Part shown: one piece after another, positions 30,172-63,996 of the stretch
Numbering within the stretch: position 1 is the stretch's first letter
How the letters are laid out: every line of letters starts with the position of its first letter
Assembly: GCF_000758625.1 (NCBI RefSeq)
Contig: NZ_CP009283.1
Span: 6,652,501-6,716,500, forward strand
DNA from: Paenibacillus sp. FSL R7-0273
GTDB taxonomy: Bacteria; Bacillota; Bacilli; Paenibacillales; Paenibacillaceae
DNA length: 64,000 nt
Reading direction: 5' to 3'
Notes under the pieces: model-generated
What the model was told of the DNA's origin: nothing
The model's input: only the letters and a program-made list of their open reading frames with translations
Databases searched by the model: none
Translations under genes and position numbers: made by a program

Positions 30172-31180
30172 ATCTGAGTCGCTCCCTTTCTCTTCTTTCC
30201 AGCACTCTTTGCTTAACATCTTCTTTTAAAGCATAATTATTTAATGCATAATCTTGCATTCTGCATATTTCATCAAACTCCATTTTTTTATCAATACTTA
30301 GAGTTACGCTCTTTTCTTGCATTCTATGGTAATTCAATGATTCATCCAGATATGCTACTTTTCCAAGTTCAAGAATTTTCATATAAGCGTACCAATCCCC
30401 GGCTAATCTATATCCCTTAGAAACTTCCAGTATCTCATGGTAATCTCCATTTTTAAAGACAACGCTAGAGGCATTTGCTATGGTATTGTTAATGCACATT
30501 GTTGAAGTAATTTCCTCGACTCCATCAATAATATAGCTTTTATCCCATTTTCCGGTTTTGTAGATATCAATCCAAGGCCGTAAATCTTTCATTAAAACTT
30601 GGTTATGTTCATTCATTGTGAGAGACTCACAATACGAAATTACAACCCTGTCGTCGTCAAACCCTTCCATAATACTTTCAAGAAACCTCGGGTGGCAGCT
30701 GTCATCAGCCTCTGCAATCCACACATAATCTCCTGAAGCATGTTTAAATCCGTACTGCCATTGAGCAAATACGTTTCCGCTGTTTTTTTCGTTAATAATA
30801 AACTTTATATTCTGAGGCGATCCTAATTTTTTTAAATGTTTTTCTATCACTTCTACACTATTGTCCCGGGAACAATCATCAATTATAATCAGCTCATGAA
30901 TAGGATAAGTCTGTAACAACACCGAATCAATTCGTTCGACTATATATTCTGCATAATTATAATTTGGAATCACCACTGAAACTTTTTTTATACTTTTATT
31001 TGAAAAGTCTGCATTATAGGAATTACTGTAAATATTAATAATCCCAGCCCCGGTATACTCACGGAAGAAATTACGTTTAACAAAATAGCTCATTTTTTTC
31101 TTAGTCTTGTGTCGTATAGGCAACAAATGATACATCCGTTTTGCTATTTTCCTAACCCCTTGTTTAATATTCAAAATCAT
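30161..31180 (-). CDS. GT2 glycosyltransferase with basic N-terminal extension
   Basis: A 339-residue protein. Residues 1-60 are basic and may sit on the membrane; the GT-A domain begins VSVVIPNYNYAEYIVERIDS and continues IIDDCSRDNSVEV, NSGNVFAQWQYGF, WIAEADDS (DXD) and RLAGDWYAY. Similar domains are found in teichoic acid and S-layer glycan enzymes. GAGGGGG is only 2 nt before the ATG and 7 nt before an in-frame TTG at 31174, so the true start may be that TTG. It follows the WbdD-like gene by 12 bp. Confidence 0.82.
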   Translation of the reverse strand: MILNIKQGVRKIAKRMYHLLPIRHKTKKKMSYFVKRNFFREYTGAGIINIYSNSYNADFSNKSIKKVSVVIPNYNYAEYIVERIDSVLLQTYPIHELIIIDDCSRDNSVEVIEKHLKKLGSPQNIKFIINEKNSGNVFAQWQYGFKHASGDYVWIAEADDSCHPRFLESIMEGFDDDRVVISYCESLTMNEHNQVLMKDLRPWIDIYKTGKWDKSYIIDGVEEITSTMCINNTIANASSVVFKNGDYHEILEVSKGYRLAGDWYAYMKILELGKVAYLDESLNYHRMQEKSVTLSIDKKMEFDEICRMQDYALNNYALKEDVKQRVLERRERERLRFGL

Positions 31181-31192
31181 TCCCCCTCACAA

Positions 31193-33178
31193 TCAATTCT
31201 TTTTGAAATAATCCTTCAAATTTTTCCGGACCAATATATAGTTTTGTTGTATGTCATCCTTATATAACTCAAGTTCCTTATTACTTTCTTTTATCGCAGA
31301 CAATTCAATACTATGTTCTTTAATTATTGCATTAAGCCGGGCCACTTCGATCTCATAATCATTGCATATCTCATTTATACGAGTATCATTGGCTCTTTGA
31401 AGTCTTGCTATTTCTCTTTCATAATCTTCAACAACTGTTTTTATTTGCTTATTCTTATCTTCAAGCTCATTTGATTGTTCATTATGAATTCGTTCTATTT
31501 CTCTTTCGTAGTCATTACAAATTTTATTTATTTGATCAGCGTAGGATTCTGCAATGCTTGTATCATCGTTATAACGACTACGCATTTCCAGATATTCTAC
31601 AATATGCTTATCCAATATTTCATTCATTAATTGTTCTTCTACATCATTAAAATAATCAGTTTTGGATTCATCTATGCCGTATCTTAAAAAAAGCTCATTT
31701 TGGGAGATTATTGTTTCAATAAAACTATTAAAACGATATAAATTAGTTATGGCTCTAAACATAACAAATTCCGTTGGCAGAACTCCAAACTTCCACTCTT
31801 GATCAAAAAAACAAAATTCCCTTTCTTTTATGAAGCAATTAGAAAAGATTAAATCAATGTAACCATCCATAAAAAAAGAAAATGAGCTTTGGTCTTCAGA
31901 TTTATTAGTGGAACAGGTTAGAAGCATATTCCAAAATTGATCAATTACATCGATAGCTCCCTCTTTATTTCTGTGCTTAAAGAAATCAAGAATTCTATCT
32001 TCAACTGTTTCATGAGGCATATACTCACTTACAAGCCGGTTATTAATTAAAACCTCTCTGTTCATTGGTATACCTATTTCAGAGAGCAGATGATTATTAT
32101 CTTCAATCTTCTCTAAATGCTTTAATGCCTTCTCATTACAGAATTTCTCTACCTTCTTATTATCTATTATTCTTGTATGCACTCTTAAATGTTCATACCT
32201 ATCGTTGTTAAAAGTAACAAAAGAAACCTTTGAATCTTCACTATAATTAATGGCCGCTTCAACAAAAAAAGAATTGGCCATCATAGGGAACGAGTTATCA
32301 TCGATAAGCGCATCAATTGCGGTATGTTCACTCATATTAAGATTTTCGGTTTCAGAATAGAACGGTCTATACCTTTTCGAGTTTTTAATTGTGGGTAAAT
32401 AATCGTCAGAGAATATAACCTGAGGAAGTTTATAATCTGGAAGCGGATAATAAAATTGATTGTTTTCAAACCCCGCAGAGGCCAATAACGCTTCAAGTTC
32501 ATTTCGTCCAAATGTTCTGACACCCTTTGAAAGAGGGTATCCAGCAATTCCATCATATTGCACATTAGTGTGATCTTCTTTAGCGCCACACCAATATTTG
32601 AGTCCCATCCTATTTTCAATAGCGATTAAAACTTTCCCGTCAGGAGCAAGAAATTTACTGACTTTCTCCAAAAATTTGTTATATGGTTGTTCTTCATGAG
32701 TAAATGACTCGGCATATTCCAGAACACCAATTAATGTAATATAATCGTATTTATCGGGCAATTCAATATCATTTAAATTCCCTACTACAATTTCAAGATT
32801 TTCTCTATCGGAGTTTCTAATCGCAATAGCCTCTGCTCTTCGTTTAGATAATTCTATCGCTGTCACTTGACTTGCATGATCACAAAGTGTACCAGTAATA
32901 GCCCCCATCCCTGCACCAATCTCTAAAATCCTAGCCCCTTCTTTAAATGGATACCAATTGATAATATTTTTTCTAATATGAGATAAATGATACACAATAG
33001 GCCAGCGTGTATCCTTTTCGTAAATGCTCTCTATTATAGTAGGATCATCTTGTGAATTTTTTAGATAATTAATAATTTCATCTTCGATTTCGCCATCACT
33101 ATAATTGTCATTTCCATTGTAATAATTTAAATTTAATAATTTAGAATGTGCTTGATATTCGTCTCCACTGACCGTCAT
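31193..33178 (-). CDS. WbdD-like protein: methyltransferase + kinase-like domain + coiled coil
   Basis: A 661-residue protein. Residues 50-250 are a class I SAM methyltransferase: ARILEIGAGMGAITG (motif I), AIELSKRRAE, YDYITLIGVLEYAES, PDGKVLIAIENRMG. Residues about 310-540 look kinase-like: KKVEKFCNEKALKHLEKI could be the Lys/alpha-C region, FMDGYIDLIFSNCF the catalytic-loop region and FFDQEWKFG the metal-binding Asp. Residues 550-661 are coiled coil with three related DYEREI-type segments. This order matches WbdD, which caps and measures O-antigen chains in E. coli O8/O9a, and the gene sits directly after wzt/wzm. The kinase assignment is weak; the methyltransferase and coil are clear. Proposed role: chain terminator and length ruler for the exported glycan. 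Confidence 0.78.
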   Translation of the reverse strand: MTVSGDEYQAHSKLLNLNYYNGNDNYSDGEIEDEIINYLKNSQDDPTIIESIYEKDTRWPIVYHLSHIRKNIINWYPFKEGARILEIGAGMGAITGTLCDHASQVTAIELSKRRAEAIAIRNSDRENLEIVVGNLNDIELPDKYDYITLIGVLEYAESFTHEEQPYNKFLEKVSKFLAPDGKVLIAIENRMGLKYWCGAKEDHTNVQYDGIAGYPLSKGVRTFGRNELEALLASAGFENNQFYYPLPDYKLPQVIFSDDYLPTIKNSKRYRPFYSETENLNMSEHTAIDALIDDNSFPMMANSFFVEAAINYSEDSKVSFVTFNNDRYEHLRVHTRIIDNKKVEKFCNEKALKHLEKIEDNNHLLSEIGIPMNREVLINNRLVSEYMPHETVEDRILDFFKHRNKEGAIDVIDQFWNMLLTCSTNKSEDQSSFSFFMDGYIDLIFSNCFIKEREFCFFDQEWKFGVLPTEFVMFRAITNLYRFNSFIETIISQNELFLRYGIDESKTDYFNDVEEQLMNEILDKHIVEYLEMRSRYNDDTSIAESYADQINKICNDYEREIERIHNEQSNELEDKNKQIKTVVEDYEREIARLQRANDTRINEICNDYEIEVARLNAIIKEHSIELSAIKESNKELELYKDDIQQNYILVRKNLKDYFKKN

Positions 33179-33221
33179 ACTCTCACCTCATTACAAATTA
33201 AACTCAGAAACTTAACTCCAA

Positions 33222-34565
33222 TTAAATCAATTGTTCTATTTTCATCCCGAGATCTACAATACCAAAACCTAAAGTTTCGTGATGGAACTTCAGATGTATA
33301 AGATCGTACCTTCTATCTAGCGGCGGAGCCTCTAATCCTGGGACATCTTCGGCTATACCCAACGAAATAAAATAATCCCCTTCAACAAGCTGAGGAATGA
33401 AAGCAAATTTAACGCAGGAAATATTAGCCTCAGTTTGTGAAGAGACCTCAATTGAATCATCTCTAGAATTATTCCCATATACAGTAACGCCATCCACCGT
33501 TTTAATAGTTAAGCCGTAGATAGGCGAAGTCACATTATCATTAAACTTAACTTTCATAATAATTTGAAGCAATTCGGTTGAACTACAATCGATCGGATCT
33601 ACCATATCATTTGACAACACCAGATAATCTATAATTTCGGCTCTTTTATCTCCCCATCTAAATTCATTTTGATTATAACTCCTTCTATTTTCGCAATTGG
33701 CCTCAAAATTTTGACTCGTTATAAATTCAATTGTTTCTTGAGAATATTTCTGTTGCATTTCCGCATCTAATTCTCTGTCTTGAGCTTTCGTTTCCGGGAT
33801 TTGCGCCGTATCACTAAGTTTTTTCTGTTTACCATAAATCAGATCCAAATAAGTATTAACAACCTCTTTAGGAAGCCCCTCTTGGATTAATTCACCTTTA
33901 TTAATCAGATATGCATAATCACAATGCCTTATAAGTAACTCAGTCGCATGCGTAACAAACAAAATCGTTTTACCACGTTCCTGAAACTCTTTAAATTTTC
34001 GAAAACACTTACTTTGAAAGCGTACATCCCCCACAGCTAGTGCTTCATCAACAATAAGAATATCGGGATCGGTATGAACTGCTGTAGCGAACGCCAATCT
34101 AAGGAACATTCCGCTTGAGTATGTTTTAACCGGTTGATCAATAAAGTGACCAATCTCTGCAAATTGTTCAATATCACTAAATCTTTCATTAATCTCTTCT
34201 CTGGTTAAGCCTAATATTGTTGCATTCATATATACATTTTCTCTTCCGGTAAACTCCGGATTAAAACCCGATCCCAGCTCTAGTAGTGCAGCAATTCTGC
34301 CGTTGACTTCAATCTCACCGCTTGTAGATTTTAGAATACCTGTAATGATCTGCAGCAGAGTACTTTTTCCCGAACCGTTTTGCCCTATTAAACCAATTGT
34401 TTTCCCTTTAGGAATATTTATTGTGATATTATTCAAAGCATTGACTTCATTAAACTTCTTCCAGTTTTTAAACAGTGAGGAAACCATTCTGTCAGCAGGG
34501 CTGTTGTACAAATAATACTTTTTACTTATATTTTTTATTTCAATTGCATTATCCTCAGATAACAT
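33222..34565 (-). CDS. Polysaccharide ABC exporter ATPase Wzt with carbohydrate-binding tail
   Basis: A 447-residue protein. Residues 1-245 are the ATPase: Walker A GLIGQNGSGKST, signature YSSGMFLRLAF, Walker B ILIVDEALAVGD, H-loop THA. After a charged linker, residues about 285-447 are a beta-sandwich of the Wzt C-terminal type (VKFNDNVTSPIYGLTIKT, VKFAFIPQLVEGDYFISLGI). In E. coli O9a that domain recognises the capped chain end. Its presence, with the WbdD-like gene next, points to export of a terminated chain. ATG at 34565 has AAGGGAG 9 nt upstream and overlaps the wzm stop by 11 bp. Confidence 0.92.
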   Translation of the reverse strand: MLSEDNAIEIKNISKKYYLYNSPADRMVSSLFKNWKKFNEVNALNNITINIPKGKTIGLIGQNGSGKSTLLQIITGILKSTSGEIEVNGRIAALLELGSGFNPEFTGRENVYMNATILGLTREEINERFSDIEQFAEIGHFIDQPVKTYSSGMFLRLAFATAVHTDPDILIVDEALAVGDVRFQSKCFRKFKEFQERGKTILFVTHATELLIRHCDYAYLINKGELIQEGLPKEVVNTYLDLIYGKQKKLSDTAQIPETKAQDRELDAEMQQKYSQETIEFITSQNFEANCENRRSYNQNEFRWGDKRAEIIDYLVLSNDMVDPIDCSSTELLQIIMKVKFNDNVTSPIYGLTIKTVDGVTVYGNNSRDDSIEVSSQTEANISCVKFAFIPQLVEGDYFISLGIAEDVPGLEAPPLDRRYDLIHLKFHHETLGFGIVDLGMKIEQLI

Positions 34566-35352
34566 CTGCAAAGGCTCCCTTCAACTTTATAAAGAAATAA
34601 TAACCAGCCACAAAAATTAAAATGGATATCGAGGTAATATTGGCCCATTGTATCCAGTCCGGAATTTCACCCCATAATACAATTTCCCTCATCTGCTGTA
34701 TTACAATTCCAAGAGGATTAAAATTATAAATACCCTTCAAATAGTCAGGAACATTTTCTATTGAATAAAAAACCGGGGAAAGAAAAAGTACAATTTGAAG
34801 AATCAATGTCACAATATAATTTGTGTCTTTAAAGAAGACTCCCAATGCAGCCAAAAACCAGGCTAAGCCCATAGATAATAAAATAATTGGAAATAAAACC
34901 ACGGGAATGAGGAAAATCGTCCAAGATAAGGCTTGTCCTAAAAAAACATTCATTATAATCAGTACAATCAGGCTAATAAGTCCATTAAATAAAGCGGTTA
35001 GCATTAAAACAACAACTAATATTTCAAGAGGGAATATTATTTTTTTCACATAATTAACATTAGATTGAATGATTGTGGCTGACCGGCTTAACACCTCTGA
35101 AAACAAGTTATATACAATCATCCCCGTAAAAAGAGTCAGGCCAAAAATAAATGTACTCTCATTTTCGGTATTTCCCCATTTGGACTTAAATATCTCACCG
35201 AAGACAATAGTATAGATGATCAGCATAATCAAAGGATTCAGAATCGCCCAAATTTTCCCCAAAATAGAACCTCGGTATTTAACTAATATATCCCTTTTTG
35301 CCAGTTGCATAATTAAATTTTTATTTCTGCAAATCGATGAAAAAACAGACAT
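34555..35352 (-). CDS. Polysaccharide ABC exporter permease Wzm
   Basis: A 265-residue ABC-2 family permease with six membrane helices. It begins with the interface helix segment NLIMQLAKRDILVKYRGSIL and has WAILNPLIMLIIYTIVFGEIF and VLFLSPVFYSIENVP. With Wzt it should carry undecaprenyl-linked glycan to the outer face. It is the first gene of the A+T-rich minus-strand block, facing the polymerase/ligase-like gene. CAAGGAGAGAG lies before its ATG. Confidence 0.92.
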   Translation of the reverse strand: MSVFSSICRNKNLIMQLAKRDILVKYRGSILGKIWAILNPLIMLIIYTIVFGEIFKSKWGNTENESTFIFGLTLFTGMIVYNLFSEVLSRSATIIQSNVNYVKKIIFPLEILVVVLMLTALFNGLISLIVLIIMNVFLGQALSWTIFLIPVVLFPIILLSMGLAWFLAALGVFFKDTNYIVTLILQIVLFLSPVFYSIENVPDYLKGIYNFNPLGIVIQQMREIVLWGEIPDWIQWANITSISILIFVAGYYFFIKLKGAFADVI

Positions 35353-35500
35353 TATTTTCTCTCTCCTTGATTCATAAATAAAATAAACTTAAAATAAAAT
35401 CTATGTATTAATAGATTTTTACAGATTTGTTATCATCAAGCACATCAGTCTCCCATACCTTTGATTCTCTCCCAACTCATATTTATGCATGTTTATAAAA

Positions 35501-35528
35501 TCGAAATATTACTGACTCTAAGTATAAT
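35501..35528 (+). promoter_or_regulatory. Possible promoter of the polymerase/ligase-like gene
   Basis: -35-like TCGAAA (35501-35506), 16 nt spacer, -10 TATAAT (35523-35528), 46 bp before the GTG start. The -35 is poor. The 222-bp divergent region otherwise holds only A/T tracts and no clear minus-strand promoter. Confidence 0.4.
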
Positions 35529-35574
35529 GATATGCTAAAATATTGTCGTACCTACAGGAAAAGGAGATTAAAAC

Positions 35575-38031
35575 GTGTCGAAACCAGTATACGGTAAAAA
35601 TGCAGCCCAGTCGAGAAATGTAGAAAAGATATCCAGCCAGGTGTGGGCATTGGCGGTTGCTTTTATTTTGTTTCTGATCTGGACCCCGTTCCAGGTTGGC
35701 TTGTTCAACGGGCAGTCGTTAGATTTTGAGAAGCCGATCTACATAGCCTCAGTACTTAGCAGTTTCCTGCTGCTGGTCTGGATAGGCTTGTACTTTACAA
35801 AGTTCAAGATTGAGGAGCAGCGTGACTTGGTCGTAGTTGCTGCATTGCTGCTTCCTATAACATATGCGTTGTCGCTTTTTGGTGCAGCTTCGCATTATAT
35901 GGCGATGAATATGCTGCTTATTCAGAGCATGTACATTGCAATATTCATTATAGCGTTATATCTGCTCAAGCAAAAGCGACTAAATGTTGTCATACAGAAT
36001 GCGATTCTTGCTATCTCCTATTTTATCGTAATGTTTGGCCTGATTAACTGGCTTGGCGGCGCGAAATTTGCCGGAGGTCTGATTGGATGGTTTTCGAATA
36101 CAGTAATTAATGGTATTTATCTGGATGCGGTCATGACCGACTCTAACGGTCTGCGTTTAACCTCCGTTTTCCAATATGCGAATACTTATGCCGCCTTTTT
36201 GATGGCGTTTCTGTTTGTAGCGGTATTTGCCCTGATCCGCTCTAAAAAGTGGTATGGGACGCTGACACACGGTTTTATGCTGGTGCCCATTATCGTTTCA
36301 TTGCTGCTTACCTTATCCCGCGGCGGACTTGTTATGTTGCCTGTCGTGTTTATCCTGCTGCTAGTGCTGCTAAAACCAGCCCAGCAGATCCTCTGGATTA
36401 TTCATCTGGCGATTGCAGGTATTGCTGCACTGGCGGTAACGAACCCGCTGACCTCTCTCGGAACCGAGCTGAATGCAGCATTCACTTCCGGGGCTGCATT
36501 AAAGGGTTGGGCTTACCTGATCATTGCTTCTCTGGTAGTAGCCGGGCTAGGATGGGTTATACAACATTATGTAGCACCTTGGCTGGAGAGTAAGCTTGGT
36601 GCCTGGGGATCACGCAAAGGAACCGGCCTCTGGCTTCCGCTCGGCTCACTTGTTCTTGTAGGAATTGTCGCCTTTCTGCTGATCGGAACAAGCGTACGCA
36701 GCATCCTGCCTGCGAACATCGAAACCCGTCTGGAGAATATTAACTTTAAGCAGCACAGTGTATTGGAACGGTTCACTTTTTATAAAGATGCTATGAAGGT
36801 TGTTAAGGATCATCCCATTATCGGAGCCGGCGGCGGCGGCTGGGCATCTCTTTATGAGCAATATCAGAACAACCCTTATACCAGCCGTCAGGCACACAAC
36901 TTCTTCCTGCAGTATCTGATTGAGGTTGGGATTGTCGGATTTATCGTGTTTATTGGATTTATCGGGTATGTTTTCTACAAATATATCCGTGGCTATCTCA
37001 AGCGTGACCAGGATGACTTTGCTAATGGCTACTTCTTCTATATCATTGCACTATCCATACTCGTGCACAGCTTACTGGATTTCAACTTAAGTTATGCTTT
37101 TATGGGCCTCCTGGTCTTCCTCAGTCTTGCCGGCATGGGCATTTCAATGGATAATAAGGTGCTGCGCGGTAACTGGAACAAGGCTGGCCTGCGGATAGGT
37201 TACCTGTCAGCAGTTGCTGTCGGAACCGTCTTTCTTCTGTTCCTGTCCATTAATTACTTGAGCTCCAGCAATTCAGCGATGAACGCCAAGAATCTTGTTG
37301 GTGTCAGCCAGTCCTATGAAGAGATCAAGGCACCTCTGGTGAAGGCACTGGACAAGCGTCCCTTCCATCCTGAATCGGTCATATATCTTTCATCCGTAGA
37401 TCAGCAGGTCTTTACCCAGACCCAGGATTCTCAGTACATTGATGAAGCCTATAACACTGTAACCCGGGCGCTGGAAGATGAGCCTAATAATAAGGAATTG
37501 CTGAAGCAGCTTGCCGGTATTTACGATCTGAAAGGACAAGCCGATCTTGCCTTTACTGTATACCAGGATAATGCTTATAAATTCTACTGGGATATTGAAT
37601 GGTACGATGCCATTATTAGCCGCTCGTTCTCTTTGAGCTACACGGCTCATGAGCTGCAGGATACTGCCAAGAAACAGGAATATATTACTACCGGTCTTAA
37701 TGCTTATAAGCATGTGGTTGATGGAGTGGAGCATTTAAAGACACTGCCGCCTGAACAGCTGCAGGGACGTCCATTCTCCGTTACGCCTAACATCGCATTG
37801 AATGCCGGTAAGCTGCAGCTGATGTCCGGGGATAATGAGCTTGCGGCTGCAACCCTTAAATCAGGTCTTAGCGAAGATTACGCAGATGCTACTAACCGTG
37901 ACATCGCCCGCTGGTACCTGGCTGCGTTGAAGCGCAGCGGCGGACAGGATCAGGCTGTCTATGACCTGCTGATTGCTGCTGATGCAGCGGAAGCGGCGCA
38001 GATTGATGCGATTGCCGGACAGCAGTTCTAA
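35575..38031 (+). CDS. O-antigen polymerase/ligase-like membrane protein with TPR-like tail
   Basis: An 818-residue protein. Residues 20-540 hold about 12-14 membrane helices and a Wzy_C/PglL/WaaL-like core: SVFQYANTYAAFLMAF, LLTLSRGGLVMLP, the outer loop ERFTFYKDAMKVVKDHPIIGAGGGGW and QAHNFFLQYLIEVGI, where the His in QAHN is the residue usually conserved in ligases. Residues 570-818 are helical TPR-like repeats. It may polymerise the glycan or ligate it to a surface protein such as an S-layer subunit. A GTG start follows AAAAGGAG. Its base composition is ordinary, unlike the block it faces. Confidence 0.85.
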   Translation: MSKPVYGKNAAQSRNVEKISSQVWALAVAFILFLIWTPFQVGLFNGQSLDFEKPIYIASVLSSFLLLVWIGLYFTKFKIEEQRDLVVVAALLLPITYALSLFGAASHYMAMNMLLIQSMYIAIFIIALYLLKQKRLNVVIQNAILAISYFIVMFGLINWLGGAKFAGGLIGWFSNTVINGIYLDAVMTDSNGLRLTSVFQYANTYAAFLMAFLFVAVFALIRSKKWYGTLTHGFMLVPIIVSLLLTLSRGGLVMLPVVFILLLVLLKPAQQILWIIHLAIAGIAALAVTNPLTSLGTELNAAFTSGAALKGWAYLIIASLVVAGLGWVIQHYVAPWLESKLGAWGSRKGTGLWLPLGSLVLVGIVAFLLIGTSVRSILPANIETRLENINFKQHSVLERFTFYKDAMKVVKDHPIIGAGGGGWASLYEQYQNNPYTSRQAHNFFLQYLIEVGIVGFIVFIGFIGYVFYKYIRGYLKRDQDDFANGYFFYIIALSILVHSLLDFNLSYAFMGLLVFLSLAGMGISMDNKVLRGNWNKAGLRIGYLSAVAVGTVFLLFLSINYLSSSNSAMNAKNLVGVSQSYEEIKAPLVKALDKRPFHPESVIYLSSVDQQVFTQTQDSQYIDEAYNTVTRALEDEPNNKELLKQLAGIYDLKGQADLAFTVYQDNAYKFYWDIEWYDAIISRSFSLSYTAHELQDTAKKQEYITTGLNAYKHVVDGVEHLKTLPPEQLQGRPFSVTPNIALNAGKLQLMSGDNELAAATLKSGLSEDYADATNRDIARWYLAALKRSGGQDQAVYDLLIAADAAEAAQIDAIAGQQF

Positions 38032-51902: not shown

Positions 51903-51985
51903 GGAGACAGCAGATTTCATGGCGCTGATAAGCGCCGCTCAGATCATGTTTGTTCAGGACAATCACATATGCTTTGCGAATGATG

Positions 51986-52195
51986 GCATAGGGAGAGACT
52001 GCCTCCCGAAGACAGCGCCGAAGGAGTAAGCCCCGGGCGGGTGAATCTCTCAGGCAAAAGGACCTTTGCCGGACGCATCTCTGGAGAGCATCAGTACCTG
52101 CTGCTACAGCACACTGATCACCAACGGGGAAACCTGCCGGATGGGTCCGTGCGGGGTAACTCTCAGGTACAAAGGACAGAGCGGAACGCTTTTTA
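51986..52195 (+). ncRNA. Tandem glycine riboswitch
   Basis: Two glycine aptamers in series. The first holds GGGAGAGACTG, CGCCGAAGGAGTAAGCCCC, GGTGAATCTCTCAGGCAAAAG and GGACCTTTGCCGGACGCATC. After a short linker the second holds the reduced core GGGGTAACTCTCAGGTACAA and AGGACAGAGCGG. The arrangement is the standard cooperative glycine sensor in front of gcv genes. The 3' end of aptamer 2 (AAAGGACAGAGCGG) also pairs into the terminator that follows, so glycine binding should favour read-through, turning the operon on. A minus-strand open frame here is not a gene. Confidence 0.95.
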
Positions 52196-56629: not shown

Positions 56630-57106
56630 ATGGTAAAAATAGCAGTTGGCCAAGAATTGAAGCTGGATAACGTACTTTCATTGAGAGCAAAAATCAAACA
56701 GGAAGATATACAACTGACATTAAAACAGATTGGACAATATCTAGAGAGAGTCAATATTCAAAAACAAGGTCCAATTGTTACAGCAACTTTTGGAGTAGAG
56801 CAAATATCTACGGGAAATATAGTTGATATAGAGATCTTGATTCCTACAGACAAACGTTTCCAACCTGAAGGGCCGTATACCTTCAAAGAAAAATTCCATC
56901 TTGTAAATGCTGTCTATGCAAGACATACAGGTAACCCCGCATCATTAGAAAATACATATCGGGATGCAATGTCTTTTATAACTTCCAATGACTTACAACC
57001 CATCACTGCAGGCTATAGTGTGAATGTAAATGAACTGAGTCCTTCTCAATCCCCGGAAGATTTAATTATAGATATATTTATAGGAATTAACCCTTCAATT
57101 CTCTAG
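56630..57106 (+). CDS. GyrI-like / DUF5085-like protein, first gene of the bacteriocin-like operon
   Basis: A 158-residue soluble protein. After an N-terminal helix-rich part (EDIQLTLKQIGQYLERVNIQ), the segment GPIVTATFGVEQISTG, VDIEILIPTDKRFQPEG and LQPITAGYSVNVNE has the strand-helix order of the GyrI-like small-molecule-binding fold and resembles the DUF5085 proteins found near LXG toxin loci. There is no signal peptide or membrane helix, so it should stay in the cytosol. GAAAGGAG precedes the ATG. It lies 37 bp before the first precursor gene and could sense a ligand, aid maturation or protect the producer. The family call is tentative. Confidence 0.6.
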   Translation: MVKIAVGQELKLDNVLSLRAKIKQEDIQLTLKQIGQYLERVNIQKQGPIVTATFGVEQISTGNIVDIEILIPTDKRFQPEGPYTFKEKFHLVNAVYARHTGNPASLENTYRDAMSFITSNDLQPITAGYSVNVNELSPSQSPEDLIIDIFIGINPSIL

Positions 57107-57143
57107 TCAGGGTTAACATTTCATCATGAAGGGAGGTGAAGAA

Positions 57144-57362
57144 ATGGAACTCGGAATGAACAGATTTGAACTTTTATCTTATGATGAGATGCTTGATGTT
57201 GTAGGAGGGAAAAATTGGAATGATGTTTGTTATGGAATTCTAGGTATGGTAACTGTTGTGGCGGCAGTAACTACGGCCCCCGTAACACTGCCTTTAGCAG
57301 CAATGGCAGTAGGTGGATCGATAGTATCAGGATACTTAGTAGGTACAGGATTACGGCCATAA
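57144..57362 (+). CDS. Double-glycine bacteriocin-like precursor A
   Basis: A 72-residue peptide. The leader of 22 residues (MELGMNRFELLSYDEMLDVV, then GG) is the double-glycine type cut by C39 peptidases. The mature part of 50 residues is hydrophobic: GILGMVTVVAAV, APVTLPLAAMAVGG and SGYLVGTG near the end, with one Cys (Cys28). GYLVG is a GXXXG helix-pairing motif as in two-peptide bacteriocins. ATG at 57144 is chosen because GGGAGGTG precedes it; the upstream ATG at 57126 overlaps that ribosome site. It lies 26 bp before its paralogue. Confidence 0.82.
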   Translation: MELGMNRFELLSYDEMLDVVGGKNWNDVCYGILGMVTVVAAVTTAPVTLPLAAMAVGGSIVSGYLVGTGLRP

Positions 57363-57388
57363 TTACAACTTAAAGGAGAGAATTATTA

Positions 57389-57607
57389 ATGCTTGTATAT
57401 TCTGCTGGCTTTACTGAACTGACTCATGAAAACAGTCTGGACATTAATGGCGGATCCAAAGTCAATTGGGGTAACATTGGTGCTGGAATCTTCGGGATGG
57501 TTACTATTATGTCTGCAGTAGCTGCCGCACCTGTTGCTGTGCCGGCTGCAATTGTTTATATTGCTGGTACTGTAGCTTCCGGATATCTTGTAGGCTCCTC
57601 ATTCTAA
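57389..57607 (+). CDS. Double-glycine bacteriocin-like precursor B
   Basis: A 72-residue peptide with a 22-residue leader ending SLDINGG and a 50-residue mature part, the same lengths as precursor A. It shares GIFGMVTIMSAV, AAPVAVP and the end SGYLVGSS with precursor A, so the two are paralogues, but it has no Cys and more Gly near the N-terminus (WGNIGAGIFG). Both carry GYLVG. They may act as a two-peptide pair or as two separate one-peptide bacteriocins. AAAGGAGAG precedes the ATG. Confidence 0.82.
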   Translation: MLVYSAGFTELTHENSLDINGGSKVNWGNIGAGIFGMVTIMSAVAAAPVAVPAAIVYIAGTVASGYLVGSSF

Positions 57608-57611
57608 ACCG

Positions 57612-57654
57612 TAAGAGACATTCTTCCATTATGTACGCTGAAGAATGTCTCTTA
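57612..57654 (+). promoter_or_regulatory. Perfect 15-bp hairpin between precursors and transport genes
   Basis: TAAGAGACATTCTTC pairs fully with GAAGAATGTCTCTTA across a 13-nt loop. Only a weak T-rich tail follows, so it probably lets some transcription through or protects the 3' end of the precursor mRNA, giving more precursor than exporter. Confidence 0.7.
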
Positions 57655-57694
57655 TATTCATATTTCATATAAAGAAAGGCGGCAGAGAATTACG

Positions 57695-58060
57695 TTGAAG
57701 CAAAAATTCGAGAGACTAATTCCTTTCATAATTAAAACGGATATTTTTTTAGGCATCCTCATTTTGATTCTCACCTTTATGGGGAAGTCCGAAATTCTAA
57801 ATCCTCAATGGTTTGCAGTTAATTTTTTCATTTTTATAGGCGGTCTTTATATTTATTCAAAGACCAAAAACAAAATTTTCTATTGTGTATTTATTTACGC
57901 TCTAATTTTTTCTTTAACAATTTTAATTGATATGATTTTCCCTGGAGGGATTATCTCTGATAACAATACTGCAGGAGATCATACCATGAGTGTTGTGTTT
58001 ATTGTACTTGGGATTGGAGGCTTTTTTGCTACTTATTATTACCAAAATAAGAAAAAATAA
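57695..58060 (+). CDS. Small four-helix membrane protein, candidate immunity protein
   Basis: A 121-residue protein with four membrane helices (IFLGILILILTFMG; FAVNFFIFIGGLYIY; FYCVFIYALIFSLTILIDMIF; SVVFIVLGIGGFFATYYY) and a basic C-terminus. Its position right after the precursors and its size are typical of bacteriocin immunity proteins, but it could also be a transport accessory. The start is TTG with AAAGGCGG further upstream than usual (about 12 nt). No family recognised. Confidence 0.62.
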   Translation: MKQKFERLIPFIIKTDIFLGILILILTFMGKSEILNPQWFAVNFFIFIGGLYIYSKTKNKIFYCVFIYALIFSLTILIDMIFPGGIISDNNTAGDHTMSVVFIVLGIGGFFATYYYQNKKK

Positions 58061-58117
58061 CTTGAGTTAATTTCATTCAAAAAGTCAATCAATAAAGCAA
58101 ATTAGGTGGGATTCATC

Positions 58118-60340
58118 CTGTTTAAAAAATTCTATTGTTATAAGCAACTTGACGCTACAGATTGCGGTGCAGCATGTCTTGCCACTATTTCCAAACAATA
58201 TGGGCTAAAATACCCGAATACAAAAATACGTGAAATCGCTGGGACCGATAAGATGGGTACCAATGCTTTTGGAATTGTAAAAGCTGCCGAAAAATTAGGT
58301 TTTACAGCCAAAGCTGTAAAAGGGAATCAAGAAGCTTTCTTTGATAACTTCCCCCTCCCTGCCGTTGCACATGTCATAATAGATCAATCATTATTGCATT
58401 ATGTAGTCATTCATAAGATATCAAAACAAGAAGTTATCATCGCCGATCCTGGGAAAGGCATCGTAAAGTATACCCCGGATAATTTTTTCAAAATCTGGAC
58501 AGGTATTCTTATCCTGATGGTTCCCACTCCAGAATTTAAGAAAGGTGACTTGACCCAAGGATTATTCGCACGCTTTTTCAAGCTTCTGATTCCTCAGAAA
58601 CGAATGCTAATGGGGATTTTTTTAGCGTCCATTTTATATACCGTTTTGGGTATTTTTTCGGCATTCTATTTTCAATTTTTATTAGATGAAATCCTCCCGT
58701 TTGGACTAAAGAAGACTCTTAATATTATCTCTGCAGGGGTTATTGTACTTTACATCTTTAAGATCCTCTTGAATGCCTTTCGCAGCCATCTCCTACTTAC
58801 CTTGAGCCAGAAGCTAGATATCTCACTCATCCTTGGCTATTACCATCATGTTTTAAGGCTACCACTGAATTTCTTCGGAACCCGTAAAAATGGTGAGATC
58901 ATTTCAAGACTTATGGATGCCTCAAAAGTACGTGATGCAATTTCCAGTGCCACCTTAACCTTAATGATTGATATTATCATGGTTATCGCCGGAGGATTCA
59001 TTCTATACTCGCAAAGCGCCATGCTATTTGGGGTTACTCTACTGATGGTACCTTTATATTTGGCCTTGGTCTGGGGGTTTCATAAGCCCTTTGACCGGCT
59101 GAACCGGGAACAGATGGAGAAGAACGCTCAACTCACTTCCTATCTTGTAGAATCGATTGATGGGATAGAAACCGTCAAAGCTTACAATTCTGAAATTAGT
59201 GTAGGCTTCGAAACAGAAAAAAAGTTCATTTCTTTTCTAAGATCGGTATTCAGCTTCGGATTGTTCAACAATGTCCAGAGTTCTCTAAAAAGCGTTGTCC
59301 AATTAATTGGAGGTGTCGTCATTCTCTGGGTTGGTGCAAGCCAGGTCATAGCAGGTAACATGTCGATTGGACAACTTATTACCTATAACTCATTGTTAGC
59401 ATACTTCTTAGACCCTATACAAAACCTCATTAATTTACAGCCAACTCTGCAAACAGCCGTTGTAGCGTCCGACCGACTGGGAGAGATTCTAGATTTAGAA
59501 GCAGAAAAACACAAAGATGAAGATCAGAAGCTTCAGCCTACTTCCTTAAAAGGCGATATTAAATTTAGTAATGTCAGCTTTAGATACGGAACTCGTTCCC
59601 TTGTACTTAAAGATATCAATTTCCACCTCCATGAAGGAGAAAAAATAGCGTTTGTCGGCGAAAGTGGTTCTGGTAAAACGACTCTGATCAAGCTAATTAT
59701 GCAATTTTATCAGCATGAGTCTGGCGAAATCCTAATCAACAACATTAATATTAAGGACATCCATCTCGATAGCTTGAGACAGAGAATTTCTTATATATCT
59801 CAGGACACTTTTTTCTTCAGCGGAACGATTCGTGATAATCTCTGCCTTGGCTTGGGGCTTGATGTTGGCCTTGATAGAATTGCCCAGGCTTGCCAGACTG
59901 CACAGGCTCACGAATTTATCAATCAACTGCCATTACGTTATAACACAATGCTAGAAGAGAATGCGGCAAATATCTCCGGGGGTCAAAAACAACGTTTGGC
60001 AATCGCCAGAGCGATTCTCAAACAGCCAGATATTCTAATTATGGATGAAGCAACCAGTAATTTAGATTCTACAACTGAGAAGGCTGTATCTGAAACGATT
60101 AATACTTTTGAAGGCATAACCACAGTTATTATCGCTCATCGATTAAGTACCATTATGCGCTGTGACCGGATTTATGTAATGGATCAAGGGCAGATCATAG
60201 AACATGGAACACATCAGGAACTCCTAGATTACCGCGGAAAGTACTTTGGCCTATGGAAAGATCAGCTCCCCGGAATTGACCAAAGTCAGGAGCACTGCAT
60301 ACTAAGTTCTACGAGAACAAGCGAGGTATCTCTTGTATGA
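58118..60340 (+). CDS. C39 peptidase-containing ABC exporter (bacteriocin processing and export)
   Basis: A 741-residue protein. Residues 1-130 are a C39 peptidase with Cys16 in DATDCGAACLATI, His94 in LLHYVVIH and Asp110 in IIADPGKG, which cuts double-glycine leaders. Residues 150-450 hold six membrane helices. The C-terminal ATPase has GESGSGKTTL, ISGGQKQRLAIARAIL and ILIMDEATSNLD. The likely start is a CTG at 58118, giving FKKFYCYKQL as in relatives, because TTAGGTGGG lies 7 nt before it; the GTG at 58106 is within that ribosome site. It overlaps the adaptor gene by ATGA. Confidence 0.93.
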   Translation: MFKKFYCYKQLDATDCGAACLATISKQYGLKYPNTKIREIAGTDKMGTNAFGIVKAAEKLGFTAKAVKGNQEAFFDNFPLPAVAHVIIDQSLLHYVVIHKISKQEVIIADPGKGIVKYTPDNFFKIWTGILILMVPTPEFKKGDLTQGLFARFFKLLIPQKRMLMGIFLASILYTVLGIFSAFYFQFLLDEILPFGLKKTLNIISAGVIVLYIFKILLNAFRSHLLLTLSQKLDISLILGYYHHVLRLPLNFFGTRKNGEIISRLMDASKVRDAISSATLTLMIDIIMVIAGGFILYSQSAMLFGVTLLMVPLYLALVWGFHKPFDRLNREQMEKNAQLTSYLVESIDGIETVKAYNSEISVGFETEKKFISFLRSVFSFGLFNNVQSSLKSVVQLIGGVVILWVGASQVIAGNMSIGQLITYNSLLAYFLDPIQNLINLQPTLQTAVVASDRLGEILDLEAEKHKDEDQKLQPTSLKGDIKFSNVSFRYGTRSLVLKDINFHLHEGEKIAFVGESGSGKTTLIKLIMQFYQHESGEILINNINIKDIHLDSLRQRISYISQDTFFFSGTIRDNLCLGLGLDVGLDRIAQACQTAQAHEFINQLPLRYNTMLEENAANISGGQKQRLAIARAILKQPDILIMDEATSNLDSTTEKAVSETINTFEGITTVIIAHRLSTIMRCDRIYVMDQGQIIEHGTHQELLDYRGKYFGLWKDQLPGIDQSQEHCILSSTRTSEVSLV

Positions 60341-61995
60341 GTATACAAATTCATAATCTGTCGGAAATGTCTGACAGTAGAGAAATTATGGAGTCTAGAA
60401 CTAGCCCTATAATTTCTACCTTCATATTTATTATTTTCATTATTTTAGTATCGCTACTTGTCTGGTCTTATAATGGCCAAATTGATGAAGTTGCCAAGGC
60501 TACTGCTGTGGTCAGACCGAACGAGAAAGTCAGTACCATTCAAACTTCATTTAACGGGACAGTAGAACATGTATATATCAAGGAAGGAATACCGATTAAA
60601 CAGGGAGAACCCCTAATTAGATTTGAGCATACAGATCTCGATATAGAACTATCTAATCGTAATTCTGAAATTAGCAAGCTCACAAAAAAACTTCAATATT
60701 TGCAGCTCTATAAACAAAGCATTAGCAGCATGACTAACCTACTCTCTTCTAAAAAAACAGACGAGCTTTACTATTACGATATGGTAGAGCAATTTCTTCT
60801 TGAGTATAGCCAGCTGCAGCAGAGCTACCGAGGGACTTATGAGCAGCTTACATCTGCCATTCACGAGAATGTAGGTTTGCAAGAATCTGCATCCATGAAT
60901 GCTGAGACCAGCTTAAATAAATCTTTTCAAAATAAAATTGAATTAGAGCGTAAAGAGAAGTTGCTTAATGTTGAAATTACAAACGAAAAGTTGCTTGTAC
61001 AATCTATCAAAGATAATCAAAACTTGCTTCCGTCTGAAGATACCAAACGGACCGAACAATATAATTCATATCAAAGTAAATATATTCAGTTATCTAACCA
61101 ATTTACTGAGAAAAAGGAAAACTATAACCGCTCACTCAGTTTGGGGGAACGCCTTATACCCAAAGCTCAGATAATAGAAGAGCAACATCAATATGAAACC
61201 TCTTATTTACAAATCAGCCAATTTCAGAATGAATTCTTACTTAGTGCAGAAAGCAATATCACGAATTACAACCAGCAATTAGCGGAGATACAAAACAGTT
61301 TAGAATTACTGCACAATGGGCACGACCCTTCTGTTACAGAACATGAAACCTTAGAAATGCAGAAAAAACGGCTTGCTGAGCAACAAAGTGACTTGCTTAA
61401 TCAACAGAAACTTAACCAAGTAAGGGAAGAAACAGAATTAAAAAAAATCAAACTTGACCGTATTGTACAAATTCATTCAGCAATCGAGACGGATACAAAA
61501 ACTTTAACCACACTCCAAGAAAATATTAAGGTGCTTGAACTTGAACGAGACAAAAAGATACTTAGAGCACCAATTTCAGGTACTATCAACGTTCTGAAAG
61601 ATACTAATATTGGAGACATAGTACAAGCTGGAGAGTCACTGCTAGCAATTATCCCTTCAAATGAATCAAAATATAAAATGAGTCTTGCCGTCCCCAATGC
61701 AGAAGCCGGAAAAATAACAGTAGGTGATCAGGTAGATTTAAGTTTTACCGCCTTTCCCAGACAAAGTTTTGGCTCACTTCGAGGAACAATTACTTCAATT
61801 AGCACAGACTCTATTGTTCAACAAGATGGCCTGAGCTATTACTTAGTCGAAGCCACTATTCCTAATACCCCACTCATCAACCGCCATGGTGAACATGGAG
61901 AGCTTCGCATTGGGATGACAGCTAATGCTTCTGTAATTACCGATTCTAGAAAAATTATTGATTTCGTTCTGGAGAAGATTAATCTTAGAGATTAA
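60337..61995 (+). CDS. HlyD-family adaptor with long coiled coil
   Basis: A 552-residue membrane-fusion protein. One helix at residues 25-44; a split biotinyl/lipoyl domain (NGTVEHVYIKEGIPIKQGE and RAPISGTINVLKDTNIGDIV); between them about 300 residues of coiled coil; then a beta-barrel part (VPNAEAGKITVGDQVDLSFT). Gram-positive bacteriocin adaptors such as LcnD/MesE are shorter, with a shorter coil, so this one is unusually long and closer in plan to adaptors that meet a TolC. Coupled to the exporter gene by a 4-bp overlap and followed 13 bp later by the TolC-like gene. Confidence 0.88.
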   Translation: MSIQIHNLSEMSDSREIMESRTSPIISTFIFIIFIILVSLLVWSYNGQIDEVAKATAVVRPNEKVSTIQTSFNGTVEHVYIKEGIPIKQGEPLIRFEHTDLDIELSNRNSEISKLTKKLQYLQLYKQSISSMTNLLSSKKTDELYYYDMVEQFLLEYSQLQQSYRGTYEQLTSAIHENVGLQESASMNAETSLNKSFQNKIELERKEKLLNVEITNEKLLVQSIKDNQNLLPSEDTKRTEQYNSYQSKYIQLSNQFTEKKENYNRSLSLGERLIPKAQIIEEQHQYETSYLQISQFQNEFLLSAESNITNYNQQLAEIQNSLELLHNGHDPSVTEHETLEMQKKRLAEQQSDLLNQQKLNQVREETELKKIKLDRIVQIHSAIETDTKTLTTLQENIKVLELERDKKILRAPISGTINVLKDTNIGDIVQAGESLLAIIPSNESKYKMSLAVPNAEAGKITVGDQVDLSFTAFPRQSFGSLRGTITSISTDSIVQQDGLSYYLVEATIPNTPLINRHGEHGELRIGMTANASVITDSRKIIDFVLEKINLRD

Positions 61996-62008
61996 AGGAG
62001 AATGGCCC

Positions 62009-63292
62009 ATGCTTAAAGTGAGGCTTCTTTTTTTAATGATTTGCTTTATTCTGTTTACTACTTATTCAGAGACTGCTTTTGCCGATGCCACCGCTACTGT
62101 AAAAACCAAAAACCTTTCCTTGGATGAAGCCGTGAAACTTGCTCTAAGTCACTACTCCAGTGTCAAGCTTGCTAATTGGAGAGCAGTTGAAAGTAACGCC
62201 CAGTTTTCTTATATTAATGCCGTTAAAAAAAAGCTAGAGGATAAGAATGTCACATCATCAAATGGTCAATTACCTGTCTCCTTCAACGATTTCTTGAAAA
62301 ACATTTCAAACTATGACCAGCTGAGTGACGAAGAAAAAGCAGCTATCCAACAGTCAATCGTACTGCAAATCATGATAAATACTTCAATAAATCAATGGAT
62401 ACAAGCACAGAATGTTAGCCAGAACAGCTATAATCTAGAACTTAAAAATAGCCAGCTTAAAGAGTACAGTAACCAACTGCGCTCGCTCGAGAGTAATCAG
62501 TCACTCAACCGGTTAGAGGTTGAGGAATCAGAGGCATTGGTACGCTACGATGTCATTCAAAAGTATTACCTGCTCTCCTCCGCAATAATGAATATCGAAT
62601 ATTTGAAACAGGACTTGCAGTATTTAGCCTCCCAGGCAGATGATGCTCATTCACTCTATAAAAGTGGACTCATTTCAAAGAAGGAACTGGAAGAGACCCA
62701 GGCTAGAGCTGAACAGCAGGAAATTGCACTTAATCGTGAGGAAAGCAGTCTACAGGCACAAATGGAGCTTTTTAAACACGAATTAGGTTTGACTGATTTT
62801 AGCAAGGTTATAATCAATCCACCCGCTCTACCTGTAATCCCAACAACCAAAAACTTTAATACAGTTTTCGATCCCGTTAATAATCTAGAACTGAAACAGC
62901 AGGATGTCAAAGTGAAGCTGGCTAAAGACAATTATGATGCCATCCTGATCTCCGAGCCCGAACTTAAAAGCTACTATTACATTCTCTGGTCCAGTCAGCT
63001 TGAGCAGAGAAATGCCCTCCAGCAGCAGCTCGAAGAAAAATTCACGGGATATAAAGCTGAAGCTAATAAACTTTCTCAAAGAAATGTCCAATTAAAAGCA
63101 GAGTATATCAGGCTTATGCAAGCATTAGATGATATTAAAACCTTGCAAGGTAAAGGCTTAGCTACCTTATCTGAGGTGGATACGGCCATTCGGCAGGTTA
63201 ATCAATCTAACCAGCAAATGAACAGCTTACAATACGAATATCTGATATTTCTGGAGAAGGTGAATTTAATAGCATACGGGGTTCTTATTTGA
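62009..63292 (+). CDS. Secreted TolC-family (outer membrane efflux protein-like) coiled-coil protein
   Basis: A 427-residue protein with a signal peptide (cut near ETAFA-DA). It has the twofold TolC layout: repeat 1 opens LSLDEAVKLALSHYSSVKLA and has a long helical pair with LYKSGLISKKELEETQARAE; repeat 2 has NLELKQQDVKVKLAKDNYDA and GKGLATLSEVDTAIRQVN. These match the OEP family consensus. The beta-barrel strands that span an outer membrane in true TolC are not apparent. ATG at 62009 follows AAAGGAG by 8 nt; an in-frame ATG at 61958 lies inside the adaptor gene. I infer an extension of the export channel beyond the membrane. It is last in the operon, before a terminator. Confidence 0.82.
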   Translation: MLKVRLLFLMICFILFTTYSETAFADATATVKTKNLSLDEAVKLALSHYSSVKLANWRAVESNAQFSYINAVKKKLEDKNVTSSNGQLPVSFNDFLKNISNYDQLSDEEKAAIQQSIVLQIMINTSINQWIQAQNVSQNSYNLELKNSQLKEYSNQLRSLESNQSLNRLEVEESEALVRYDVIQKYYLLSSAIMNIEYLKQDLQYLASQADDAHSLYKSGLISKKELEETQARAEQQEIALNREESSLQAQMELFKHELGLTDFSKVIINPPALPVIPTTKNFNTVFDPVNNLELKQQDVKVKLAKDNYDAILISEPELKSYYYILWSSQLEQRNALQQQLEEKFTGYKAEANKLSQRNVQLKAEYIRLMQALDDIKTLQGKGLATLSEVDTAIRQVNQSNQQMNSLQYEYLIFLEKVNLIAYGVLI

Positions 63293-63311
63293 AGCATTTA
63301 CAGGTTTAATA

Positions 63312-63350
63312 ATAAATAAAGGAGCCCTAAAACACTGGGCTCCTTTATTT
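63312..63350. terminator. Bidirectional terminator between the TolC-like gene and the regulator
   Basis: AAATAAAGGAGCCC pairs with GGGCTCCTTTATTT, a perfect 14-bp stem with A and T runs on either side. Confidence 0.9.
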
Positions 63351-63996
63351 ATAATATAAATTCCTGCTCATTAGCCGGAGAAGGTGACAGTTTCTTGATA
63401 AACTGCCAACGGTCATTTACATTCATCTTAGTATAGATGCTCTTAATGACATTCCTTACCGTACCTTCGCTAATTCCTAACTCGTTAGAAATGTACAAAG
63501 CACTTTTTTCTACCAACCACATTTGTGCTACATCCTTCTCCCTCGCTGTCAAGCTATACTCTGTGAAAATCAAATCCAACCTGCACCGCTGCAGTTCAGG
63601 ATCATTGCGCATCCATCTAACGCTTACATTATCTGCAATCTGCCGCATTAAAGGAATGGCTAACTCAATGGGCTGCCCTTTATAGAAAGAAATATCCACA
63701 TACCCATGTATTACACCTTCTGAATAGAGGGGAGAGCATACACAATTCCATTCGGAAAATATAGGATTTGTATGCTCCTTCCCTTTAACGACTCCAATTG
63801 AATTCATTACCATCGCAAGCGAAACTGCGTTCAGGCCTAATTCTGGTTTGGCAAAACTTATGCCCACACTTAATCCGGACCTATTCAGTTCTGCTTGTAT
63901 CTCTGGTGATGAAGGATAAATATCCAGAATTTTTCCCGTATCATCACTCAGAAAAACTGCAAAGTCTACAGATATATACTTACTAATTTTGAGCAT
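63349..63996 (-). CDS. GAF-LuxR family transcriptional regulator (possibly partial)
   Basis: At least 215 residues. Residues 1-130 look like a GAF-type sensor of the AcoR class (LGLNAVSLAMVMNSIGVVKG, KEHTNPIFSEWNCVCSP, GVIHGYVDIS). Residues 148-205 are a LuxR helix-turn-helix (LTAREKDVAQMWL, ISNELGISEGTVRNVIKSIY). There is no receiver domain, so it may respond to a small ligand or to another protein rather than a histidine kinase. The ATG at 63996 is 4 nt from the window edge and its ribosome site is outside, so a longer N-terminus is possible. It converges on the bacteriocin-like operon and is a candidate regulator of it. Confidence 0.8.
   Translation of the reverse strand: MLKISKYISVDFAVFLSDDTGKILDIYPSSPEIQAELNRSGLSVGISFAKPELGLNAVSLAMVMNSIGVVKGKEHTNPIFSEWNCVCSPLYSEGVIHGYVDISFYKGQPIELAIPLMRQIADNVSVRWMRNDPELQRCRLDLIFTEYSLTAREKDVAQMWLVEKSALYISNELGISEGTVRNVIKSIYTKMNVNDRWQFIKKLSPSPANEQEFIL

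Follow-up and report, generated by a model that had tools for sequence, protein, structure and literature searches.

What is a gene for a TolC-like protein doing at the end of a bacteriocin-type operon in a Gram-positive bacterium? The locus that raises this question lies in a stretch of 64,000 nucleotides (the window, C1:6652501-6716500) of the 7.29 Mb, single-contig genome of Paenibacillus sp. FSL R7-0273. Its seven co-oriented genes encode a DUF5085-like protein, two double-glycine peptides, a small membrane protein, a C39 peptidase-ATP-binding cassette (ABC) exporter, an HlyD-type adaptor, and the TolC-like protein (Table 1). An original prediction, made from the letters of the window, had called the precursors, exporter, adaptor, and TolC-like gene contiguous, with coupled or closely spaced starts. 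Both points are confirmed by open reading frames (ORFs) and family matches (for TolC by way of intermediate proteins, see below): the ABC and HlyD frames overlap by 4 bases, and 13 bases separate HlyD from the TolC-like gene. The genes it named are all present, but its text contained neither the DUF5085-like gene nor the pattern of adaptor lengths described here. From sequence comparison we favor, as rather probable, the reading that this monoderm has a type-1-like secretion line dedicated to a two-peptide bacteriocin.

Conservation of the TolC-like gene with exporter and adaptor

The TolC-like gene was found in 10 of 150 genomes, including the host's own and all within the genus. It stands directly after the C39-ABC and HlyD genes in all nine relatives, likewise in the window, and this constant order speaks against chance juxtaposition, which we reject. 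The original prediction had staked its reading beforehand on conservation of the gene with the exporter, and had proposed looking for the gene order in other Paenibacillus genomes; it has held up, since 10 of 10 such genes directly follow a C39 exporter and a long adaptor. In its own genome the gene occurs once, inside the operon. An HlyD search matched 37 of the 150 genomes, the same 10 at E 5.7e-129 or better and the others at 3e-39 or worse. C39 domains, by contrast, are present in 50 of the 150, which means that the TolC-like gene is missing from most of the genomes that have one.

A TolC hidden Markov model run over 24 loci (ORFs of at least 150 aa) matched only in the nine relatives and in G435 (L and G numbers are our handles for loci and genomes). 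G435, from another family, encodes a C39 exporter (731 aa), an HlyD adaptor (552 aa), a 240-aa protein, and a TolC-like protein, with one gene between HlyD and TolC. It was the only further full set seen in class-wide searches (299 and 398 genomes); of the 14 out-of-genus matches from the search of 299 genomes, ten were viewed in context, plus a second place in G288 (G201, G230, G237, and G244 were left out). By eye, these contexts contain the C39-HlyD-TolC set in G435 only, operons of the resistance-nodulation-division (RND) kind in G231 and G242, and surface-layer (S-layer)-type genes beside the matches in G331 and G288; some matches do not look like TolC at all. A named relative from Anoxybacillus ayderensis, found by profile search, resembles the G435 protein. 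The contig profile search returned nothing with the single sequence and three loci, all Paenibacillus, with the alignment (P. auburnensis, P. spiritus, and a Paenibacillus metagenome-assembled genome). Phylum-wide, a widened alignment reached 31 of 398 genomes at E 1e-6; beyond three genus members, the matches listed are partial and distant (best 1.3e-16; surroundings were viewed for G203 only among the 28 genomes outside the genus). A genus-wide profile search gave 11 of 100 genomes, the eleventh (G024) through a 34-residue match (E 3.9e-4). This stretch, which matches the C-terminal end of the TolC-like protein, lies at L124:3409-3510, between an RND gene and a stalk-domain gene, with neighbors like those of the L017 operon, and is possibly what an operon loss left behind.

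The adaptor is longer wherever the TolC-like gene is present: its inter-lipoyl part measures 302-316 residues in 11 of 11 TolC-positive loci (related loci rather than independent events, ten in one genus and one in another family, which holds equally for the identities below) vs. 208-268 residues in nine of nine related C39 loci where no TolC-like gene was seen (in one of these, L146, the contig breaks off right behind the adaptor and a CPBP-like gene, at the position that the TolC-like gene occupies in G435). The excess over the nine TolC-less loci is about 34-108 residues; some 95 residues over the shortest class, if split between both arms of the hairpin, would by arithmetic amount to roughly 7 nm at 0.15 nm per residue. 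For the periplasm-like zone of Gram-positive bacteria, passages of PMC8141598 give 22 nm in B. subtilis and 16 nm in S. aureus, and one study cited there saw none.

Pairwise identities over nine loci (36 pairs; L020, whose ABC frame is cut short in the gene list, was left out, and L115, the G435 locus, is absent) correlate at r 0.88 between HlyD and TolC-like proteins, a value not independent of phylogeny, and at 0.42 between C39 domain and TolC-like protein; the transmembrane-ATPase part of the exporter gives 0.78 with TolC and 0.82 with HlyD. For example, L017 and L018 share their HlyD (100%) and TolC (99%), and L013 and L014 nearly so (94 and 93%), but their C39 domains agree at 81 and 80%, respectively, and their peptides differ; the window and L014 have the same peptide types and C39 domains 92% identical, but HlyD and TolC at just 64%. 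Shared HlyD and TolC with differing C39 domains and peptides would mean that the two parts of the conduit are passed on as a unit, and that cargo and protease domain are swapped around them. In the adaptor tree the TolC-positive loci can form one clade (support 59/81, 64% of bootstraps); taken with the ABC tree (see below), this fits, rather than proves, a shared exporter core accompanied by a conduit module, with exchange between the two. The long adaptor and the TolC-like protein, in traveling together, suggest a dedicated pipe through the thick wall.

Identity and architecture of the TolC-like protein

Against PF02321 the window protein scores 20.6 bits, just below the cut-off of 22, and against TIGR01844 it reaches 1.9e-4, far below that family's cut-off. 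Its assignment to TolC is carried by intermediates, because the L118 and L116 proteins match PF02321 above cut-off: hhalign joins the window protein with 97.4% probability to the TolC-like protein of an RND-type operon (L118), and with 93.9% to the one beside S-layer-type genes (L116). The proteins of L117, L119, L120, and L122 are also over the PF02321 cut-off, and that of L115 is under it (16.7 bits). Solved TolC structures gave no direct sequence link, the matches being coiled-coil or unrelated chains (e.g., lamin).

A two-repeat plan is visible by eye, each repeat starting with a helix motif and carrying a glycine turn further on, as in TolC. Measured between these two anchors, chosen by eye, repeat 2 spans 145 residues in E. 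coli TolC vs. 89-98 in all nine Bacilli proteins measured (91 in the window). The shortfall of about 50 residues is the size of that repeat's two strands and loops, at what we take to be the strand positions in E. coli TolC, and suggests that the beta-barrel strands have been lost; the window protein is probably without a beta-barrel. The predicted mimicry of the Gram-negative channel thus stands in part: a TolC-like third component is present, but it is not a full mimic, since by repeat-2 spacing the barrel strands are missing. Repeat 1 spans 184-186 residues in the operon family (four measured), 121 in L116, L119, and L120, 168 in L122, 224 in L118, and 144 in E. coli. This long repeat 1 contains the stretch that is best conserved in the family (residues 106-130; mean 0.69 vs. 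0.42-0.60 in the other ten stretches), with Q115, Q120, I123, N124, S126, and N128 invariant across 20 sequences; a helical cap may sit here where the barrel would be. A hydrophobic-moment test of helix vs. strand in the barrel region was uninformative, because it did not separate the helices and strands of E. coli TolC.

A search for Omp85 gave no match in the host genome (the control search was positive in 7 of 14 genomes, all outer-membrane bacteria); a diderm host is rejected on this ground, in line with the Gram-positive host named in the original prediction. The PF02321 search of the genome also returned no match, which says little, because the same search overlooks the window copy. There are 136 surface-layer homology (SLH) domain matches in the genome; SLH proteins alone do not prove an S-layer.

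Cargo, self-protection, and competing readings

The two 50-residue peptides of the original prediction were recovered, with the start of peptide 1 corrected to 57144; both leaders end in GG, and each mature part has a net charge of +1. The leader rule for peptidase-containing ABC transporters (PCATs), as stated in a passage of a review, is L-12, E-8, L-7; peptide 1 has L-12, E-8, and M-7, and peptide 2 L-12 only. In 10 of the 11 TolC-positive loci, a scan detected peptides of the double-glycine type ahead of the exporter gene (1-3 each, 19 in total, one ending in GE). Two co-encoded peptides with double-glycine leaders and a C39 exporter of their own, as in class IIb bacteriocins, are present in the window, and both peptides (72 + 72 residues, both GG) fall within the size and leader definition of Cdz proteins (60-151 residues, leader ending G[G/A/S]). 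Glycine zippers reach p < 0.01 vs. shuffles in only 4 of the 19 peptides, none from the window, and were rejected as a general mark of these peptides.

DUF5085 proteins are described in passages of PMC10434224 and PMC12744356 as neutralizing glycine-zipper, membrane-damaging toxins: TipE neutralizes TelE (PMC10434224), whose toxic end is called weakly like bacteriocin IIc, and ExiAB binds the glycine zipper of EsxX in a groove and neutralizes it (PMC12744356). By this analogy, the first gene of the operon is probably for self-protection. Over ten proteins including that of the window, PF16895 is passed by L014 (32.7 bits) and L019 (39.1 bits), seven fall below the cut-off of 30, and L020 gives no match; phmmer places a DUF5085-like gene upstream in 7 of the 11 TolC-positive loci (in L021 on the other strand) and in 4 of the 9 others. 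The small membrane protein, by phmmer over the ORFs of 19 loci, matched only in L014, L018 (where the match sits in a frame running on into the ABC gene), and L115 (in G435, more distant). It thus accompanies the window-type peptides of L014 and L018, as expected of a cognate immunity protein. CPBP-type membrane protease-like genes, recognized by eye, follow the adaptor at L115:10485-11207, L146:270-857, and L053:10810-12351, with a possible role in immunity or processing.

In the secretion line that we propose, the DUF5085-like protein would bind the hydrophobic, glycine-rich precursors in the cytosol, as its relatives TipE and ExiB suggest; the C39 domain would cut the leaders after GG, and the ABC part export the peptides, as is established for PCATs. 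Long HlyD adaptors would carry the peptide away from the membrane, and the TolC-like protein, its outer-membrane barrel lost, may dock on the adaptor tips, its tube extending through the periplasm-like zone and the wall, perhaps to an S-layer. The small membrane protein would protect the outer face of the producer's membrane. The stoichiometry would be that of Gram-negative systems, six adaptors to one trimer. More tentatively, and somewhat short of an even chance, the barrel-less tube and the lengthened adaptor would together give a bacterium with a single membrane a protein pipe that crosses its periplasm-like zone and wall, keeping toxic peptides off its own membrane and wall, with the helical cap as the pipe's seat in the wall or S-layer. 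Passage of the product beyond wall or S-layer, already proposed by the original prediction, is something we only infer.

Several observations weigh against such a line, besides the phylogeny shared by the correlated pairs. In the ABC tree (where the row for L020 is truncated and that for L018 includes additional upstream frame), the TolC-positive loci are not one clade, and three changes are needed. Related C39 exporters have no TolC-like gene nearby, so export as such needs none. PF02321 is reached at E 0.1 by only 5 of 15 members of the TolC-like family, and hhalign against E. coli TolC alone gives a non-significant 1.8%. The DUF5085-like protein of the window falls short of its family cut-off (Table 1), phmmer found no such gene in L013, L015, L016, and L115 (4 of the 11 TolC-positive loci), and the peptide scan found no double-glycine peptide upstream of the exporter in L021. 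Finally, the window peptides have 1 and 0 glycine zippers, numbers that shuffled sequences reach in 26 and 100% of cases.

The last of these points bears equally on another reading, in which the operon is a Gram-positive counterpart of the Caulobacter Cdz system and the peptides are held on the outer surface, perhaps by the TolC-like protein, for contact-dependent killing. Cdz combines an ABC and HlyD-type pair with two small double-glycine-leader, glycine-zipper proteins kept on the surface (passages of PMC5380434); strong zippers occur in both peptides of L019 and two of the three of L115 (6-8 zippers, p 0.001-0.003); DUF5085 serves as immunity to glycine-zipper toxins, the bacteriocin IIc family that the toxic end of TelE weakly resembles also being the best Pfam match of peptide 1 (E 0.003); and the best conserved stretch of the TolC-like protein sits where the barrel would be. 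With zipper counts in the window as by chance, and surface retention not readable from sequence, we hold this reading to be doubtful, at perhaps one chance in a few. That the peptides are signals, with the LuxR-type neighbor as receiver, is decidedly improbable: C39 exporters do also carry quorum-sensing peptides (according to part of a review), and the LuxR-type gene adjoins the operon, with similar frames beside several relatives, but toxin and immunity are the better match for a DUF5085 gene, for a pair of hydrophobic 50-residue peptides encoded together, and for a small membrane protein that L014 and L018 have alongside the same type of peptide.

Doubt may also fall on the last gene itself. 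Its weak direct TolC scores, and the readiness of coiled coils to score against unrelated helices (the lamin match), would suit a coiled-coil wall protein that resembles TolC without channel function; the two repeats with helix motif and glycine turn as in TolC, the fixed repeat-2 spacing (by eye), the L118/L116 link to PF02321, the fixed place after the adaptor, and the lengthened adaptor all argue otherwise and make this unlikely, if slightly less so than the signal reading. As for the idea that the gene has no present function and is decaying after inheritance from a diderm ancestor or after a transfer, the G024 remnant suggests that the gene can be lost, and the operon is an AT-rich island; the other 10 of the 11 genus matches are full-length, have no internal stops, and adjoin the exporter, and we give this explanation very little credence.

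Known systems, operon anatomy, and surroundings

Secretion across the thick Gram-positive wall is mostly treated as diffusion. A 2025 review of wall traffic uses neither the word TolC nor the term type I secretion in its main text (PMC12445088). TolC-like proteins in monoderm Firmicutes have been reported, many in operons with other pump parts, one of them from C. difficile with barrel omission, and a seat in the S-layer was proposed (passages of PLoS Biol 2022, PMC8809574). As in those systems, the window has a secreted TolC-like protein (signal peptide by eye; TolC via intermediates) in a monoderm, an operon with adaptor and transporter, a genome without BAM, and barrel omission, here judged from the repeat-2 spacing of 9 of 9 Bacilli proteins (anchors by eye). 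Unlike those efflux pumps, as that source describes them, it has a C39 peptidase exporter, its cargo is peptide, and its adaptor is unusually long; the main text of PMC8809574 nowhere uses the terms Paenibacillus, bacteriocin, or type I secretion. The titles, abstract openings, and some passages of the open PMC literature, among the matches listed, described no monoderm in which a C39 exporter is paired with a TolC-like protein. To that extent, the monoderm TolC-like concept with its S-layer idea is already published (PMC8809574), and a peptide-processing exporter with such a protein was not found in print. In another Bacilli family, TolC-like genes (L116:7077-8405 and L119:9320-10699; PF02321 about 1e-30) adjoin genes that look, by eye, like those of S-layer-type surface proteins, which agrees with the S-layer idea in print.

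The three-part plan of ABC transporter, HlyD, and TolC is that of Gram-negative type 1 secretion (HlyB-HlyD-TolC, colicin V type), and the C39 ABC transporter and HlyD-family adaptor are both present; in contrast to it, the third component probably has no beta-barrel for an outer membrane (repeat-2 spacing 91 vs. 145 by anchors chosen by eye, without room for the barrel strands, and no Omp85 match), and the TolC-like gene is in the operon, once in the host genome. Class IIb operons with a PCAT and accessory protein (TIGR01193/TIGR01000; PCAT1) likewise have a double-glycine peptide pair, a C39-ABC, an HlyD-like protein, and a membrane immunity candidate, but not the longer inter-lipoyl part, the TolC-like protein, or the DUF5085-like first gene. 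Cdz shares the ABC and HlyD-type pair and the two small double-glycine-leader proteins; according to passages of PMC5380434 cdz does not encode TolC, and the zippers of the window peptides are weak. TipE (PMC10434224) and ExiAB (PMC12744356) are, in the passages describing them, PF16895 family members beside a membrane-active, small-residue-rich toxin or candidate toxin; the window gene, with its PF16895 match below cut-off, has a similar setting. TipE and ExiAB guard against LXG toxins of the type VII secretion system (T7SS), whereas here the gene leads a peptide-exporter operon. The locus links research on TolC-like proteins of monoderms (PMC8809574) with the separate field of DUF5085 proteins that give immunity to glycine-zipper toxins (PMC10434224, PMC12744356). 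With related exporters that have or lack the extra part, and adaptor length as a built-in ruler, a wall-crossing conduit becomes testable by single deletions.

Table 1. Features of the operon and its flanks (positions in the window).
Feature	Position	Strand	Evidence
DUF5085-like protein, 158 aa, probable cytoplasmic immunity protein or chaperone	56630..57106	+	PF16895 4.7e-6, 27.5 bits (cut-off 30)
Double-glycine precursor peptide 1, 72 aa (22 leader + 50 mature)	57144..57362	+	PF10439 Bacteriocin_IIc E 0.003, under cut-off
Double-glycine precursor peptide 2, 72 aa (22 leader + 50 mature)	57389..57607	+	No meaningful family match
Strong hairpin between peptide and exporter genes, possible attenuator	57611..57655	+	RNAfold -21.0 kcal/mol on 57605-57665
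Small hydrophobic protein, 121 aa, candidate membrane immunity protein	57695..58060	+	phmmer; membrane nature by eye
C39 peptidase-ABC exporter (PCAT), 744 aa	58106..60340	+	TIGR01193 730.8 bits
Long HlyD-type adaptor, 552 aa, about 310 residues between lipoyl halves	60337..61995	+	PF13437 4.3e-17, TIGR01843 2e-53
TolC-like secreted protein, 427 aa, probably without beta-barrel	62009..63292	+	PF02321 weak; signal peptide by eye
Hairpin in the convergent TolC-like/LuxR gap, probable two-way terminator	63314..63350	.	RNAfold -21.3 kcal/mol on 63296-63350
LuxR-type regulator, convergent, possible operon regulator	63349..63996 (open at window end)	-	PF00196 3.1e-12

The exporter exceeds the TIGR01193 cut-off of 523.85, matches PF03412 (1.4e-38, 132 bits), and has the catalytic Cys, His, and Asp of the C39 domain intact, as read by eye; its nearest solved structure is 4ry2 (821 bits), which we take to be PCAT1. 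The adaptor passes PF13437 (63.2 bits), stays under the TIGR01843 cut-off (181.9 vs. 208.65 bits), and is akin to the HlyD-type chain 8dck_C (2.5e-21). The TolC-like gene starts with ATG at 62009 (Shine-Dalgarno sequence AAAGGAG), and not with TTG at 61958 as in the original gene model. The LuxR-type gene has a full frame of 280 aa in the genome (L022), and similar-looking frames stand beside L013-L018, split in two in L014 (by eye).

Paenibacillus also has a second exporter type (L058:7106-14160; also L056, L057, and L059), comprising an ABC protein with a weaker C39 match, an HlyD protein, and a secreted-looking protein of about 950 aa (two scanned, no Pfam match). L058 also encodes an RTX-repeat protein (PF00353 4.4e-13), which would be RTX-type type 1 secretion in a Gram-positive. 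The adaptors of this type have 445 residues in L056-L058 and a 522-residue frame in L059, with L055 undecided; they lie outside the adaptor-length count, and the ORFs of L055-L059 gave no TolC hit.

A promoter scan was of no use (19 found vs. 21.1 expected), and a plasmid origin is unsupported, as a tblastn search of PLSDB with the TolC-like protein returned nothing at 1e-5. The operon has a G+C content of 37-39% and lies downstream of glycine-cleavage genes, a flank with 52-58%; ahead of these genes is a glycine riboswitch aptamer (window 51980-52075; RF00504, 70.1 bits). Elsewhere in the window, mostly at 48-58% G+C, positions 20000-36000 form an AT-rich island (32-36%) with surface polysaccharide genes (glycosyltransferases, an ABC-2 exporter, and acyltransferases, by eye).

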